Shown here piece by piece: positions 6,077 through 13,040 of a DNA stretch of 64,000 nt (its first letter is position 1; every line of letters begins with the position of its first letter). The DNA comes from Hydrogenovibrio crunogenus (GTDB lineage Bacteria > Pseudomonadota > Gammaproteobacteria > Thiomicrospirales > Thiomicrospiraceae): positions 682,001-746,000 of the forward strand of contig NZ_CP032096.1 in NCBI RefSeq assembly GCF_004786015.1. The letters are read 5' to 3'. The position numbers and the translations under genes were made by a program. The notes below the pieces were generated by a model. The model was not told the origin of the DNA. It was given only the letters and a program-made list of their open reading frames with translations, and did not search any database.

Positions 6077-6955
6077 ATGTCGTATAAGAAATTAACAAAA
6101 GCCGTTATTCCTGTAGCTGGGTTGGGCACCCGTTTTTTGCCAGCAACAAAAGCCATTCCGAAGGAGATGTTGACGGTCGTAGATAAGCCTTTAATTCAAT
6201 ATATTATTCACGAAGCAGCTGAAGCCGGGATTACCGATATTATTCTGGTGACTCATTCAAGTAAAGGGGCAATCGAAAATCACTTTGATAAGCATTATGA
6301 GTTGGAAGCGGAGTTAGAAATTAGGGGGAAAAAGGACCGTCTTGAATCCTTGAAAGAGATTACGCCAAAAGGCGTTCGAATTGTCAGTGTGCGCCAGCCT
6401 GAAGCTTTAGGGTTGGGTCATGCTATTTTATGCGCATCCCCAATTATAGCCGATAACGAGCCGTTCGCGGTCTTGTTACCGGATGTGTTGATGCATCATT
6501 CAGTTAAAGGTTGTTTGGCTCAGATGACAGAGCAGTATCGAAAAATGCATACCAGTGTGGTGGCATTGGAGGCGGTGCCGGATGACCAAGTTGAAAAATA
6601 TGGTATTGCTGCGGTAAAAGGACCTGATCTTAGAATTGTAGAACTGGTAGAAAAACCAAAGCCAGCGGATGCACCTTCCAACCTGTCTGTTGTCGGGCGC
6701 TATATTTTTACACCAAGATTGATGGAAATTTTAAAAACCACTAAGCCAGGAGCTGGCGGTGAGATTCAGCTTACTGATGCGATGGACGAATTGCTGAATG
6801 AAGAAGTCATGTTTGGTTTCGAATTTAAAAATGGCCAGACGTATGATTGTGGGGACAAGTTAGGCTATCTCCAAGCAAATGTTGAATACGCATTAAGAGA
6901 TAAAGCTTTGGGGAAAGGGTTTAAAGCTTACTTAAAATCGTTGAAGTTAAGTTGA
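6077..6955 (+). CDS. galU: UTP-glucose-1-phosphate uridylyltransferase
   Basis: Makes UDP-glucose from UTP and glucose-1-phosphate for polysaccharide and lipopolysaccharide synthesis. 292 residues with the nucleotidyltransferase signature AGLGTRFLPATKAIPKEML at residues 14-32, followed by VDKPLIQYIIHEA, then VEKPKP and GGEIQLTDA. Length is normal. It is followed by pgi and a ugd-like gene on the same strand, a sugar-nucleotide gene set. A TATAAT at 6033-6038 could be its -10 box, but no good -35 is visible. Confidence 0.96.
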   Translation: MSYKKLTKAVIPVAGLGTRFLPATKAIPKEMLTVVDKPLIQYIIHEAAEAGITDIILVTHSSKGAIENHFDKHYELEAELEIRGKKDRLESLKEITPKGVRIVSVRQPEALGLGHAILCASPIIADNEPFAVLLPDVLMHHSVKGCLAQMTEQYRKMHTSVVALEAVPDDQVEKYGIAAVKGPDLRIVELVEKPKPADAPSNLSVVGRYIFTPRLMEILKTTKPGAGGEIQLTDAMDELLNEEVMFGFEFKNGQTYDCGDKLGYLQANVEYALRDKALGKGFKAYLKSLKLS

Positions 6956-7010: not shown

Positions 7011-8642
7011 ATGGGCGTTGAGACATCATCCGCATGGCAAGCGTTACAGCTTCATAGCGACTCCGGAATGGGGTCCGTTCATTTGTCGAAACTATTTCAA
7101 GATACGAGTCGGCAAGATGATTTTTCTTTAGAGTTATCGGACATATATGTTGATTTCTCAAAGAACCGTATTACACAGGAAACCATCCAGCTTTTAATCG
7201 AGTTAGCCGAACAGCAGAAATTGCCGAAAGAAATTCATCGTCTTATGACTGGTGAGCATGTTAATGATACCGAAGATAGACCTGCTTTACACACTGCGCT
7301 GAGAGCCTTAAGTAAAGATGTTTCGGGAGTCGCGGAAACGGTTCAACCTGATATTGAGCAGGTATTGCGGAAAATGGAGTTGATGACTAAAAAGATTCGC
7401 TCTGGCCATTGGCGAGGTTACAGTGGTAAGCCGATCACGGATGTAGTGAATATTGGAGTGGGAGGATCGGATTTAGGGCCACTAATGATCACCCATAGTT
7501 TGCAAACGATGAGTTCTCCCATCAATTTGCATTTCATTTCCTCAATTGACGGCACACAAACCTCTAATCTGCTTAGAGGGCTTAAACAAGAAACCACGTT
7601 ATTCATTCTTGCATCCAAGTCTTTTACAACCATTGATACTCTTTCCAATGCTGAAACGGCCAAAGATTGGTTGAAAGAATGCATTAAGGATGAGCGAGTT
7701 ATTCTTTCACAGCATTTTATTGGGGTCTCAACAAAACCGGATAAAATGCAAGAATGGGGAATTCCGCCCGAAAACCAATTAATGTTTTGGGATTGGGTCG
7801 GAGGGCGTTATTCACTTTGGTCTGCAATAGGTTTTCCGATCGCACTGAAAATTGGTATGGATGGGTTTCGTGAGTTGCTGCAAGGTGCACATGAAATGGA
7901 TCAGCATTTTGCAACAGCGGATTTGAAGAAGAATATACCGGTTATTTTGGCTTTAATTGATATTTGGAATATCAACTTTTTAAACATTCATGATAAGGCC
8001 ATTTTGCCTTATGATGCTCGGTTGCGTTATTTGCCAGCGTATCTTGAGCAGTTGGTTATGGAAAGTAATGGTAAATCCGTTGCGCGTTCGGGTGAGTCTG
8101 TTCCTTATAAGACTTGTCCTGTTCTATGGGGGGAAGTGGGGCCGAATGCACAGCATGCTTTTTATCAACTTCTGCACCAGGGAACGCAAGCTGTTATGTG
8201 CGATTTCATTGCACCCGTTGAGCGGGATGACTTTGATGCGGACTCACATACTGAACGAGATGAAAGTTTAAGACACCAGCATGAGTTGGCACTGGCGAAT
8301 TGCTTTGCCCAGTCTCGAGTTTTAATGTTGGGGGACAACGCTATTCCTTCAGATTTAAAAGCCAGTTTTGATTCTCCTTTTAAACATTATCCAGGCAACC
8401 AGCCTTCGAATACCATTCTGATTAAAACCATATCGGCTAAAACGCTCGGAATGTTGGTCGCCATGTATGAGCATAAAACCTATGTGGAAAGTGTGATCTG
8501 GGAGATAAATCCTTTTGATCAATGGGGTGTGGAGCTCGGAAAATTAATTGCAAAAGAAACCTATAATGCCATCAAAGACCAGCCGTTGGCAGACAGTTTC
8601 GATAGTTCGACTAAAGGGTTAATTGACAGGGTTGTGAAATGA
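7011..8642 (+). CDS. pgi: Glucose-6-phosphate isomerase
   Basis: Interconverts glucose-6-phosphate and fructose-6-phosphate in the cytoplasm. 543 residues, normal for the bacterial enzyme. The sugar-phosphate loop NIGVGGSDLGP lies at 147-157. The signatures VARSGESVPYKTCPVLWGEVGPNAQHAFYQLLHQGTQ and QWGVELGKLIA near the C terminus match both PGI family patterns. The start has AAGGGGATTCG upstream. Its stop codon overlaps the start of the next gene in an ATGA arrangement, so translation is coupled to the ugd-like gene. Confidence 0.97.
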   Translation: MGVETSSAWQALQLHSDSGMGSVHLSKLFQDTSRQDDFSLELSDIYVDFSKNRITQETIQLLIELAEQQKLPKEIHRLMTGEHVNDTEDRPALHTALRALSKDVSGVAETVQPDIEQVLRKMELMTKKIRSGHWRGYSGKPITDVVNIGVGGSDLGPLMITHSLQTMSSPINLHFISSIDGTQTSNLLRGLKQETTLFILASKSFTTIDTLSNAETAKDWLKECIKDERVILSQHFIGVSTKPDKMQEWGIPPENQLMFWDWVGGRYSLWSAIGFPIALKIGMDGFRELLQGAHEMDQHFATADLKKNIPVILALIDIWNINFLNIHDKAILPYDARLRYLPAYLEQLVMESNGKSVARSGESVPYKTCPVLWGEVGPNAQHAFYQLLHQGTQAVMCDFIAPVERDDFDADSHTERDESLRHQHELALANCFAQSRVLMLGDNAIPSDLKASFDSPFKHYPGNQPSNTILIKTISAKTLGMLVAMYEHKTYVESVIWEINPFDQWGVELGKLIAKETYNAIKDQPLADSFDSSTKGLIDRVVK

Positions 8643-9949
8643 GAATTACAGTTTTTGGATGTGAGTTAAGTGGACTTGTCACGGCAGGCTCTTTGGCGCA
8701 CACAGGTAACGAGGTTTTAGCCATTCCAGTCGGAAAGGCGAAAGCGGAAGAATTGAAACAGGGGCTCTTGCCGAGAGATGAACCCGGTCTTGATCAATTA
8801 ATCGCAAGCCAAGTAAAAGAAGGTCGGCTGGATTTTTCTCATGATTGGTCAGAAGGGATTCAACATGGAGAAGCGTACTTTCTCAGTATGCCTTCTTGGC
8901 GAGCAGACAAAGCAGAGCTGGTCATTGATGCAATCGGACAGTCGGCTTCAAAGGATGTCTTGGTTGTAAATCAAAGCACTTTTCCTATTGGAACGGCGGA
9001 TCGTTTCGAAGCAAGCATTAAGTTAGCCTTTGCGCAAAGAGGGCTGGTTGCAAACGTTGCGGTTGCTTCAATGCCCGAGTTTATCAGTGAAGGTTCTGCT
9101 ATCAGTGATTTTTCCAAACCCTCGCGTGTTGTTTTAGGTTGTCATAATGAGGGCGCTATTGCTTTGATCAAAGACTTGATGCGGCCTTTTAATCATGTGA
9201 CGGATCAAGTCAAAATCATGTCGACTCGAGCCGCTGAATACACCAAGTATGCGGTGAATGCACTTTTAGCCACTCGAATCAGTTTGGTGAATGAACTGGC
9301 GAATAATGCCGAGCATTTTAATATTGATATTGAAGAAGTCCGTCAGGGCTTAGGCTCGGATTCAAGGATTGGGTTTAATTATTTGTTTCCAGGATGTGGT
9401 TTTGGTGGCCCGAGCTTTGCGGCCGATGTGCAGGCGTTAGTCGGCACTTTTGAGTCAAAAGGCTACGATGCAGACCTATTGAAAGCGGTATTACAAAACA
9501 ATGAAACACAAAAAGAAGTGATGTTTAGAAAAGCTTGGCGATTCTTCAAAAATGATTTGAGAGGTTTAAAGGTTGCTGTCTGGGGGTTGTCATTTAAACC
9601 GAATACCGCAACAGTGGATAATGCACCGAGTGTTAAAACGATTGAAGCGCTCGTGGCACAAGGAGCTGAAGTGGTGGCTTATGACCCAAAAGCCAATAGC
9701 GCTTTTAAAGATTACTGGGGTGACCAATCAGGTGTGACTTTAGTAACAGAAATGTACGACGCACTAGAGCAAGCAGATGCATTAATGGTGTTAACTGAAT
9801 GGCGGCGTTTTTGGAGTCCGGATTATGTCAGGATGTTTGAATTGATGAAGCGGCCTATCATTTTCGATGGTCGCAATATTTATGAACATGAAGTCCTAGT
9901 CGATCATGGCTTTAGACACTTTGGTGTTGGGCGAGGTGAAGTCGTTTAA
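8639..9949 (+). CDS. UDP-glucose/GDP-mannose dehydrogenase family protein, atypical active site
   Basis: 436 residues with the three-domain layout of UDP-glucose 6-dehydrogenase, translationally coupled to pgi (ATGA). Several conserved residues remain: QSTFPIGT, MPEFISEGSAISDF, AEYTKYAVNALLATRISLVNE and the C-terminal WGLSFKPNTATVDNAPS. Key residues are changed. The nucleotide loop reads GCELSG at 7-12 instead of GxGYVG. The acidic NAD-ribose ligand region VDVD is replaced by IPVG at 29-32. The catalytic GGSCFPKD is GGPSFAAD at 256-263, so the nucleophilic Cys is Ser259 and the conserved Lys is Ala262. It is therefore either an enzyme with changed chemistry or a pseudoenzyme. Family assignment is firm; canonical UDP-glucose oxidation is doubtful. 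Confidence 0.85.
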   Translation: MRITVFGCELSGLVTAGSLAHTGNEVLAIPVGKAKAEELKQGLLPRDEPGLDQLIASQVKEGRLDFSHDWSEGIQHGEAYFLSMPSWRADKAELVIDAIGQSASKDVLVVNQSTFPIGTADRFEASIKLAFAQRGLVANVAVASMPEFISEGSAISDFSKPSRVVLGCHNEGAIALIKDLMRPFNHVTDQVKIMSTRAAEYTKYAVNALLATRISLVNELANNAEHFNIDIEEVRQGLGSDSRIGFNYLFPGCGFGGPSFAADVQALVGTFESKGYDADLLKAVLQNNETQKEVMFRKAWRFFKNDLRGLKVAVWGLSFKPNTATVDNAPSVKTIEALVAQGAEVVAYDPKANSAFKDYWGDQSGVTLVTEMYDALEQADALMVLTEWRRFWSPDYVRMFELMKRPIIFDGRNIYEHEVLVDHGFRHFGVGRGEVV

Positions 9950-9965: not shown

Positions 9966-9989
9966 AAAAGCCCGTTTGGGCTTTTTTGT
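9966..9989 (+). terminator. Terminator after the pgi/ugd-like pair
   Basis: AAAAGCCC, loop GTTT, GGGCTTTTTT: a compact stem with a T tract 17 bases past the stop codon. Confidence 0.85.
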
Positions 9990-12437: not shown

Positions 12438-12473
12438 CATGATTATTTCATTTTATCGTGTGAGTAACGTGTA

Positions 12474-13040
12474 ATGGGCAGTCCTGTGATTCCTGCACAT
12501 TTACTGAATACGCTGGGGCTACCGATATGGCAGAGCAGGTCTGGTCAATTTTTAACTTCTCAAAAAGTGAAAGAATCGCTCTCCCCAAGTTACGCTGTTT
12601 CGGATGAGGAGCCGCAAATTGACACAACTCAAGTGGAAGAGAGGGTAACTGCTGTTGATTATGCTGCTTCATTGGTAGAAGAAGAGCTTCAAAGAGTGTT
12701 TGTTTTTTTAGGCGCAGGGTTAAGCACCATTTGGCAAAATGAAGATTGTTCAGAATGGCAGCTGTTCTTAAATATCTTATCGGTGTTTCATTTGTCTGAA
12801 GATCAGGTTCGTTTTTTTGATACCAGTCAGTTGGTGACAGAAGAAGCGATTTTTGCAACGCTGGATGAGATTATTGAGTTAGGTGTTGAGCAGGTGTTTG
12901 CCTTTGATGAAACGGGCCCTTTGCTGCAAGAATTGAGTGAGGGGGCGCAGATTGTTGTGATGCCTTCATTTGAAGACTTGTTAAACTCACCTCGAGCAAA
13001 ACGGGACTTTTATCATCTGATGATGGTTCAGCTCACTTGA
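12474..13040 (+). CDS. holD: HolD-like DNA polymerase III psi subunit (diverged)
   Basis: A 188-residue protein placed immediately before rimI, exactly where E. coli has holD. Two stretches recall HolD from memory: LLNTLGLPIWQSR near the N terminus (compare QLGITQWSLRR) and PSFEDLLNSPRAKRDFY at the C terminus (compare PALTDLRANPTARAALW). Psi links the clamp loader to SSB through chi. It is about 50 residues longer than E. coli HolD, with an insert around residues 30-70. No strong ribosome-binding site precedes the ATG at 12474. A near-copy of the dispersed repeat lies at 12535. HolD is poorly conserved, so the call rests mainly on synteny. Confidence 0.62.
   Translation: MGSPVIPAHLLNTLGLPIWQSRSGQFLTSQKVKESLSPSYAVSDEEPQIDTTQVEERVTAVDYAASLVEEELQRVFVFLGAGLSTIWQNEDCSEWQLFLNILSVFHLSEDQVRFFDTSQLVTEEAIFATLDEIIELGVEQVFAFDETGPLLQELSEGAQIVVMPSFEDLLNSPRAKRDFYHLMMVQLT
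12535..12553 (+). repeat. Near-copy of the dispersed CCAGGCCTGG repeat (in holD-like)
   Basis: GCAGGTCTGGTCAATTTTT; core 8/10, with the TCA and T-rich tail. Read as SRSGQF. Confidence 0.5.

Follow-up and report, generated by a model that had tools for sequence, protein, structure and literature searches.

What might a protein do that has kept the three domains and the predicted sugar contacts of a uridine diphosphate (UDP)-glucose dehydrogenase but has lost the catalytic cysteine and most of the site for nicotinamide adenine dinucleotide (NAD)? The question is raised by a gene of Hydrogenovibrio crunogenus at 8639..9949 (+ strand; 436 amino acids), delimited as an open reading frame and characterised by domain and motif comparison. 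It lies in a stretch of 64,000 nucleotides, referred to as the window and used for all feature coordinates, which spans bases 682001-746000 of a source genome made up of a single contig of 2,453,259 bases. An earlier reading of this DNA (the sequence-only reading) had described a maintained paralogue with altered or lost dehydrogenase activity, coupled to the gene for glucose-6-phosphate isomerase (pgi). Pseudoenzymes are known in many families, and we put at about an even chance the reading that the protein is a pseudoenzyme, maintained and still able to bind a UDP-sugar, which most likely acts as a regulator or sensor in connection with Pgi and the uridylyltransferase GalU. Hereafter, ugd* denotes the Cys-less orthologues of the window protein.

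Family assignment of the window protein

The window protein exceeds the cut-offs of PF03721 (106.1 bits, cut-off 27), PF00984 (101.5 bits, cut-off 25.4) and PF03720 (98.1 bits, cut-off 30), all matched over nearly their full length, and passes TIGR03026 for nucleotide sugar dehydrogenases with 310.8 bits against a cut-off of 189.8. Its best NCBIfam score, 321.5 bits, is with the TuaD equivalog NF047673, yet the cut-off of 700 is missed. Among solved structures, UDP-glucose dehydrogenases come closest, with 2y0e as the best match (E 5.8e-102). By these matches it has the three domains that define the nucleotide sugar dehydrogenase family; of the features predicted for a functional UDP-glucose 6-dehydrogenase, the UDP-sugar contacts and the general base are present, and the Cys and the NAD site are absent.

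Loss of the nucleophile and of the NAD site

The comparison set 61 ugd* proteins, drawn from 57 genomes of the family of H. crunogenus (the own family) and three of a second order (f102), 60 in all, against 36 canonical proteins of the same type, which are Cys-bearing by definition and come from other families (32) or from own-family genomes (4). Unless given as residues of the window protein, residue numbers are those of the S. pyogenes enzyme, and roles follow PMC4794789.

Translation of the open reading frame bears out the three motifs picked out by the sequence-only reading, all on the + strand. The active-site motif GGSCFPKD is replaced by GGPSFAAD (residues 256-263, 9404..9427), with Ser259 in place of the nucleophile Cys260 and Ala262 in place of the NAD-contacting Lys263. 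The GxGxxG loop is degenerate and reads GCELSG (residues 7-12, 8657..8674), Gly9 being changed to Glu and Tyr10 to Leu, and IPVG (residues 29-32, 8723..8734) replaces VDVD, with Pro30 at the position of Asp29, the residue assigned to the adenosine ribose (PMC4794789). Further losses, beyond those described earlier, include the VGTP loop bearing Thr83, a gap in 61/61 proteins whose approximate place is about residues 84-85 (8888..8893, + strand), and the replacement by Asp327 (9617..9619, + strand) of Arg327, which reverses the charge of the residue reported to form a salt bridge with the NAD pyrophosphate (PMC4794789). Leu10 for Tyr10 and Gln112 for Lys116 complete this group.

Orthologues with an intact Cys, which would contradict the proposed change of activity, were looked for, and Cys260 is kept in 0/61 ugd* proteins, its position being occupied by Ser (23), Asn (19), His (11), Tyr (5), Asp (2) or Gly (1). 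The NAD contacts Gly9, Asp29 and Thr83 are each kept in 0/61, the last through deletion of its loop. Arg327 persists in 3/61, with Glu in 31 and Asp in 15 of the others, and Lys263 in 5/61; Tyr10, linked to thioester hydrolysis, remains in 4/61 and Lys116, a loop support, in none of the 61. Because neither the Cys nor any of these three NAD contacts survives in the 61 orthologues, their loss is not a matter of chance, and a clade with no Cys and few NAD contacts left supports the earlier suggestion that dehydrogenase activity is probably altered or lost. A divergent ugd* from the own genus (G008, 46% identity) carries GGVGFSEG at the active-site motif and is the sole PF00984 protein found in its genome.

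Retention of the UDP-sugar contacts

The UDP-sugar contacts Lys204, Asn208, Arg244, Gly257 and Lys320 are each present in 61/61 ugd* proteins. On the + strand of the window they include the segment Lys203 to Asn207 (9245..9259; equivalent to Lys204 and Asn208), predicted to supply the contacts to the sugar O6 (PMC4794789), Arg243 (9365..9367; equivalent to Arg244), predicted to reach the sugar across subunits (PMC4794789; PMC3184952), and Lys320 (9596..9598), a predicted contact to the UDP diphosphate (PMC4794789). In the human enzyme, residues 265-280 are described as wrapping UDP-glucose while Arg260 of the other subunit touches its sugar (PMC3184952). Pro140, Asn219, Gly258 and Asn287 are also found in 61/61, and the general base Asp264, which is Asp263 in the window protein, in 60/61; Ser117 (51/61) and Glu201 (53/61) are mixed positions. 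All canonical rows (36/36) carry each of Gly9, Asp29, Thr83, Arg327, Lys263, Cys260, Lys204, Asn208, Arg244, Gly257, Lys320 and Asp264. As judged from the alignment, the loss is selective: most of the predicted NAD contacts are gone, and every UDP-sugar contact that was tested is retained, as is the Arg that reaches across subunits.

Columns conserved in at least 95% of the canonical proteins are kept (in at least 80% of ugd*) at 20/58 positions of the N-terminal, 31/42 of the central and 20/31 of the C-terminal domain. Four residues, R213, F255, W300 and Q341, are fixed in 49/49 non-redundant ugd* proteins and occur in fewer than 20% of 34 canonical rows, which suggests a retained but changed function.

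Descent, distribution and selection

The sequence-only reading had proposed a phylogeny of the family to see whether its Ser variant forms a clade. In an 82-row tree the Cys-less variant as a whole groups together (support 100/100), Ser being found in only 23/61 of its members. The clade is also recovered with a Shimodaira-Hasegawa-like approximate likelihood ratio test (SH-aLRT) value of 99 in a tree of 79 rows, calculated from central and C-terminal columns with the Cys loop and the Arg327 region left out. Separate losses in different lineages are disfavoured, ugd* forming one supported clade in both trees.

Matches at 1e-30 or better were obtained in 57/62 own-family genomes, the family being the whole order among the genomes searched, and each of the 57 has a Cys-less copy with pgi upstream. 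Four of the five remaining genomes have no pgi match and the fifth has a pgi cut at a contig end; since pgi is missing or cut in these five, the gaps in the distribution look like assembly gaps. One genome (G038, stated contamination 4%) contains two differing ugd* copies, one of which stands 1.6 kb away from its pgi and is truncated where the contig stops. When a profile of 21 ugd* members was run against 369 genomes of the class, the matches listed comprised ugd* of four own-family and two second-order genomes at 577-657 bits and others at no more than 510 bits. In the second order, 3/6 genomes have ugd*, the lowest score being 566 bits, and in a scan of 398 genomes of the phylum at a strict 1e-147 no genome but the own one passed. 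Outside the own family and the second order, 32 loci (23 from the class scan and nine others) were read at the Cys position; a match at 1e-90 occurred in 253/369 class genomes, and independent Cys losses may exist beyond the 32 loci read.

The window gene starts with ATG and has no internal stop, the reverse complement being full of stops in the one frame translated, and the reading frames are open in 61/61 ugd* genes, one of which (G038b) is truncated at the edge of its contig. Among the listed pairs of 80-99.5% identity (Nei-Gojobori method), the five with the least saturation (dS 0.33-0.79) have a ratio of nonsynonymous to synonymous substitution rates (dN/dS) of 0.009, 0.009, 0.016, 0.018 and 0.057, the remaining pairs having dS of at least 1.2 or undefined; dN of the central domain lies between 0 and 0.012. 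The gene is under purifying selection. With its presence in 60 genomes and its single supported clade, this agrees with the earlier view of a maintained and not a decayed gene.

A search for a canonical ugd elsewhere, also proposed earlier, found two further PF00984 proteins in the own genome (C1:1655311 and C1:1851412), both with an intact GGYCLPKD and 27-28% identical to ugd*. We take these two distant homologues to be of the E. coli type. Cys-bearing homologues also accompany ugd* in four genomes (G007, G016, G020 and G056), with no pgi in the sequence stretch around them. In 12/62 own-family genomes no PF00984 protein besides ugd* was found, a count that a missed member would lower; four of the 12 (G013, G046, G050 and G052) are single-contig genomes that are 99-100% complete. 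Since it is the sole family member found in these four, ugd* need not serve an active Ugd.

Gene neighbourhood

The ATG of the window gene overlaps the pgi stop codon by 4 bases in the sequence ATGA (8639..8642, + strand), from which translational coupling is inferred. Both pgi (7011..8642, + strand) and the gene that opens the conserved galU-pgi-ugd* unit, galU for uridine triphosphate (UTP)-glucose-1-phosphate uridylyltransferase (6077..6955, + strand), were read as open reading frames. The names galU, pgi, glgC, glgB, ROK kinase and 'E. coli-type' are presumptive and were given from the sequences. Downstream, a consensus scan gave a hairpin of 8 pairs with a T-rich tail (9966..9985, + strand), which resembles an intrinsic terminator and could end the galU-pgi-ugd* transcript; terminator-like elements number 7 in the region against a mean of 6.5 in shuffles, i.e. 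no excess. Farther along the window, an open reading frame at 12448-12858 (- strand), antisense to that at 12474-13040, is probably spurious.

In 61/61 loci pgi is located upstream of ugd*, the spacing between its stop and the start of ugd* being -11 to +1 bases at 57/61, and a galU homologue precedes the pair in 30/31 loci with at least 2.6 kb of upstream sequence; galU was not seen in G041. The order galU-pgi-ugd*, read by eye, is also found in 3/3 second-order genomes with ugd*. Among second-order genomes without it, pgi does not follow galU but lies between glgC- and glgB-like genes in G427 and G429 (L126, L127) and between ROK-kinase-like and glgB-like genes in G377 (L128). In a quick Pgi tree, second-order Pgi proteins that accompany ugd* fall among the own-family ones (SH-aLRT 90), apart from those without ugd*. 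This may reflect joint transfer of a cassette, on which we do not rely, the starred branches not forcing it and the outgroup branch being very long.

Proposed function and alternatives

The most likely history of ugd* is a single origin from a UDP-glucose dehydrogenase of the TuaD type, after which the gene was fixed behind pgi. To judge from the residues retained, its product would most likely be a reversible binder of UDP-glucose, or of a similar UDP-sugar, that leaves its ligand unoxidised, and we consider UDP-sugar binding as such probable. Made together with Pgi and GalU, Ugd* would most likely report the UDP-glucose pool and could adjust the path from fructose-6-phosphate through glucose-6-phosphate to UDP-glucose, probably by touching Pgi or GalU. 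Sensing with an action on either enzyme, drawn from the pocket residues and the operon, is a tentative proposal, less likely than not. These bacteria are sulfur-oxidising autotrophs, and one may speculate, with similar reserve, that in Ugd* a dismantled dehydrogenase has become an intracellular receptor dedicated to UDP-glucose, which feeds the level of that ligand back on Pgi (and GalU) and partitions newly fixed carbon in these organisms.

Several observations weigh against a binding protein tied to Pgi. The NAD site has not been erased altogether, Gly7 of GxGxxG being kept in 61/61 and Gly12 in 28/61 ugd* proteins, and the general base Asp264 is also gone in G008. The surroundings of the active site have changed, with Glu141 in 21/61 (Asp in 39/61), Thr118 in 27/61 and Glu145 in 49/61; the earlier statement that the remaining framework is intact thus holds for the window protein but not, at the Thr and Glu sites, for the clade. 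The predicted structure is too low in confidence to be used (mean predicted local distance difference test score 45.7, predicted template modelling score 0.32, from an alignment of the window protein and two relatives), and the geometry of the pocket is therefore drawn from homology alone. Three ugd* loci stand 75, 196 and 1632 bases from pgi, and operon position is in any case evidence of co-expression, not of contact. Finally, the pairing with pgi is shared by a canonical, Cys-bearing ugd of another family (G028, L032), which directly follows pgi, in 1/36 canonical loci, and it is therefore not confined to pseudoenzyme genes; the Pgi of G028 is 38% identical to that of the window, and the arrangement there may be ancestral or independent.

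Among the other explanations, Ugd* could be an assembly partner of Pgi, a scaffold or stabiliser that keeps the UDP-sugar pocket mainly for fold and dimerisation and senses nothing. The constant presence of pgi upstream, even in G041 where galU was not seen, is in line with this, as is a genome (G055, L067 2414-5242) in which an uninterrupted frame of 943 codons runs through pgi and ugd*, a fusion that, if real, would indicate physical contact of the two proteins. That genome, however, is a single draft, 88% complete, whose junction differs by about one base from that of its relative G042, where the genes overlap by 4 bases, and an assembly slip may be responsible. Likewise, conservation within ugd* is highest in the central domain, but the same holds for the canonical proteins (0.72 mean identity), and the residues kept include Lys320 of the C-terminal domain together with Lys204 and Asn208, described as ligand contacts (PMC4794789). 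We regard a pure scaffold as unlikely. A still active enzyme with some other, NAD-independent chemistry on a UDP-sugar would be in line with the retention of Asp264 (60/61) and of Lys204 and Asn208 (61/61), but the nucleophile position varies between branches (Ser, Asn, His, Tyr, Asp or Gly); we know of no relative with such chemistry, which we count against it, and find it rather improbable.

The two readings that keep Ugd* within UDP-glucose oxidation are both very improbable. If it were a subunit that regulates a canonical UDP-glucose dehydrogenase, it would have candidate partners in the two further homologues of the own genome with intact motifs, but these are distant in sequence, and the role could hardly be general when 12 genomes, including four single-contig ones, yielded no PF00984 protein besides ugd*. 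Residual NAD-dependent activity, for instance with Ser performing the oxidation role of Cys, might be argued from Gly7 and from the covalent adduct reported to accumulate in the human Cys276Ser mutant (PMC3184952); against it, Gly9, Asp29 and Thr83 are gone throughout, residue 327 is acidic in 46/61 and Ser occurs in a minority of the clade. As for a decaying gene, identity to the window protein does drop to 38% within the clade, but open frames in 61/61, dN/dS of 0.009-0.057, and a missing (four) or cut (one) pgi in the own-family genomes without a match make this hardly credible.

Returning to the UDP-sugar-binding pseudoenzyme, a clade that keeps the sugar contacts and sheds the NAD site amounts to a natural experiment in the passage from enzyme to binding protein, and ugd* offers a testable candidate for controlling UDP-glucose supply. 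Because the window protein passes the TIGR03026 cut-off, family-based annotation can label ugd* a dehydrogenase, and UDP-glucuronate synthesis could then be predicted for genomes that yielded no further member of the family. Within the collection of papers searched, none joins 'UDP-glucose dehydrogenase' with 'pseudoenzyme', and near-synonyms gave only papers unrelated by title, as did Hydrogenovibrio with UDP-glucose; Thiomicrospira with UDP-glucose gave only a sponge-symbiont paper (PMC5361782).

Comparison with known systems

Ugd* shares with the TuaD-type UDP-glucose 6-dehydrogenases (NF047673; PDB 2y0c-e) the full-length three domains, the UDP-sugar contacts examined and the Arg shared across subunits, but it lacks their Cys, NAD contacts and VGTP loop and scores far under the NF047673 cut-off. 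Similarly, the window protein stands above the cut-offs of the TIGR03026 subfamily and of the three Pfam domains, whereas ugd* departs from what is general in that group. A survey of 229 nucleotide sugar dehydrogenases reports the Cys as invariant, among 18 invariant residues overall (PMC4794789); of these, Gly9, Thr83 and Cys260 are lost in 61/61 ugd* proteins, Glu141 in 40/61, Thr118 in 34/61, Gly12 in 33/61, Ser117 in 10/61, Glu201 in 8/61 and Asp264 in 1/61.

For the proposed function, the nearest analogues are other regulators that respond to UDP-sugars. OpgH and UgtP are size regulators for which UDP-glucose is a reported metabolic signal (PMC3723540), as it would be for Ugd*, but they are glucosyltransferases and not dehydrogenase pseudoenzymes. 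GlmR (YvcK), a regulator of GlmS also reported to act as an accessory uridyltransferase (PMC10128056), has been proposed to sense UDP-GlcNAc and thereby tune the same pathway at an early point (PMC7525490). We envisage that Ugd* gives feedback in that proposed manner, through binding of its ligand, and it might be the UDP-glucose counterpart of GlmR; sugar and enzyme differ, and the two are likened by mode of action only.

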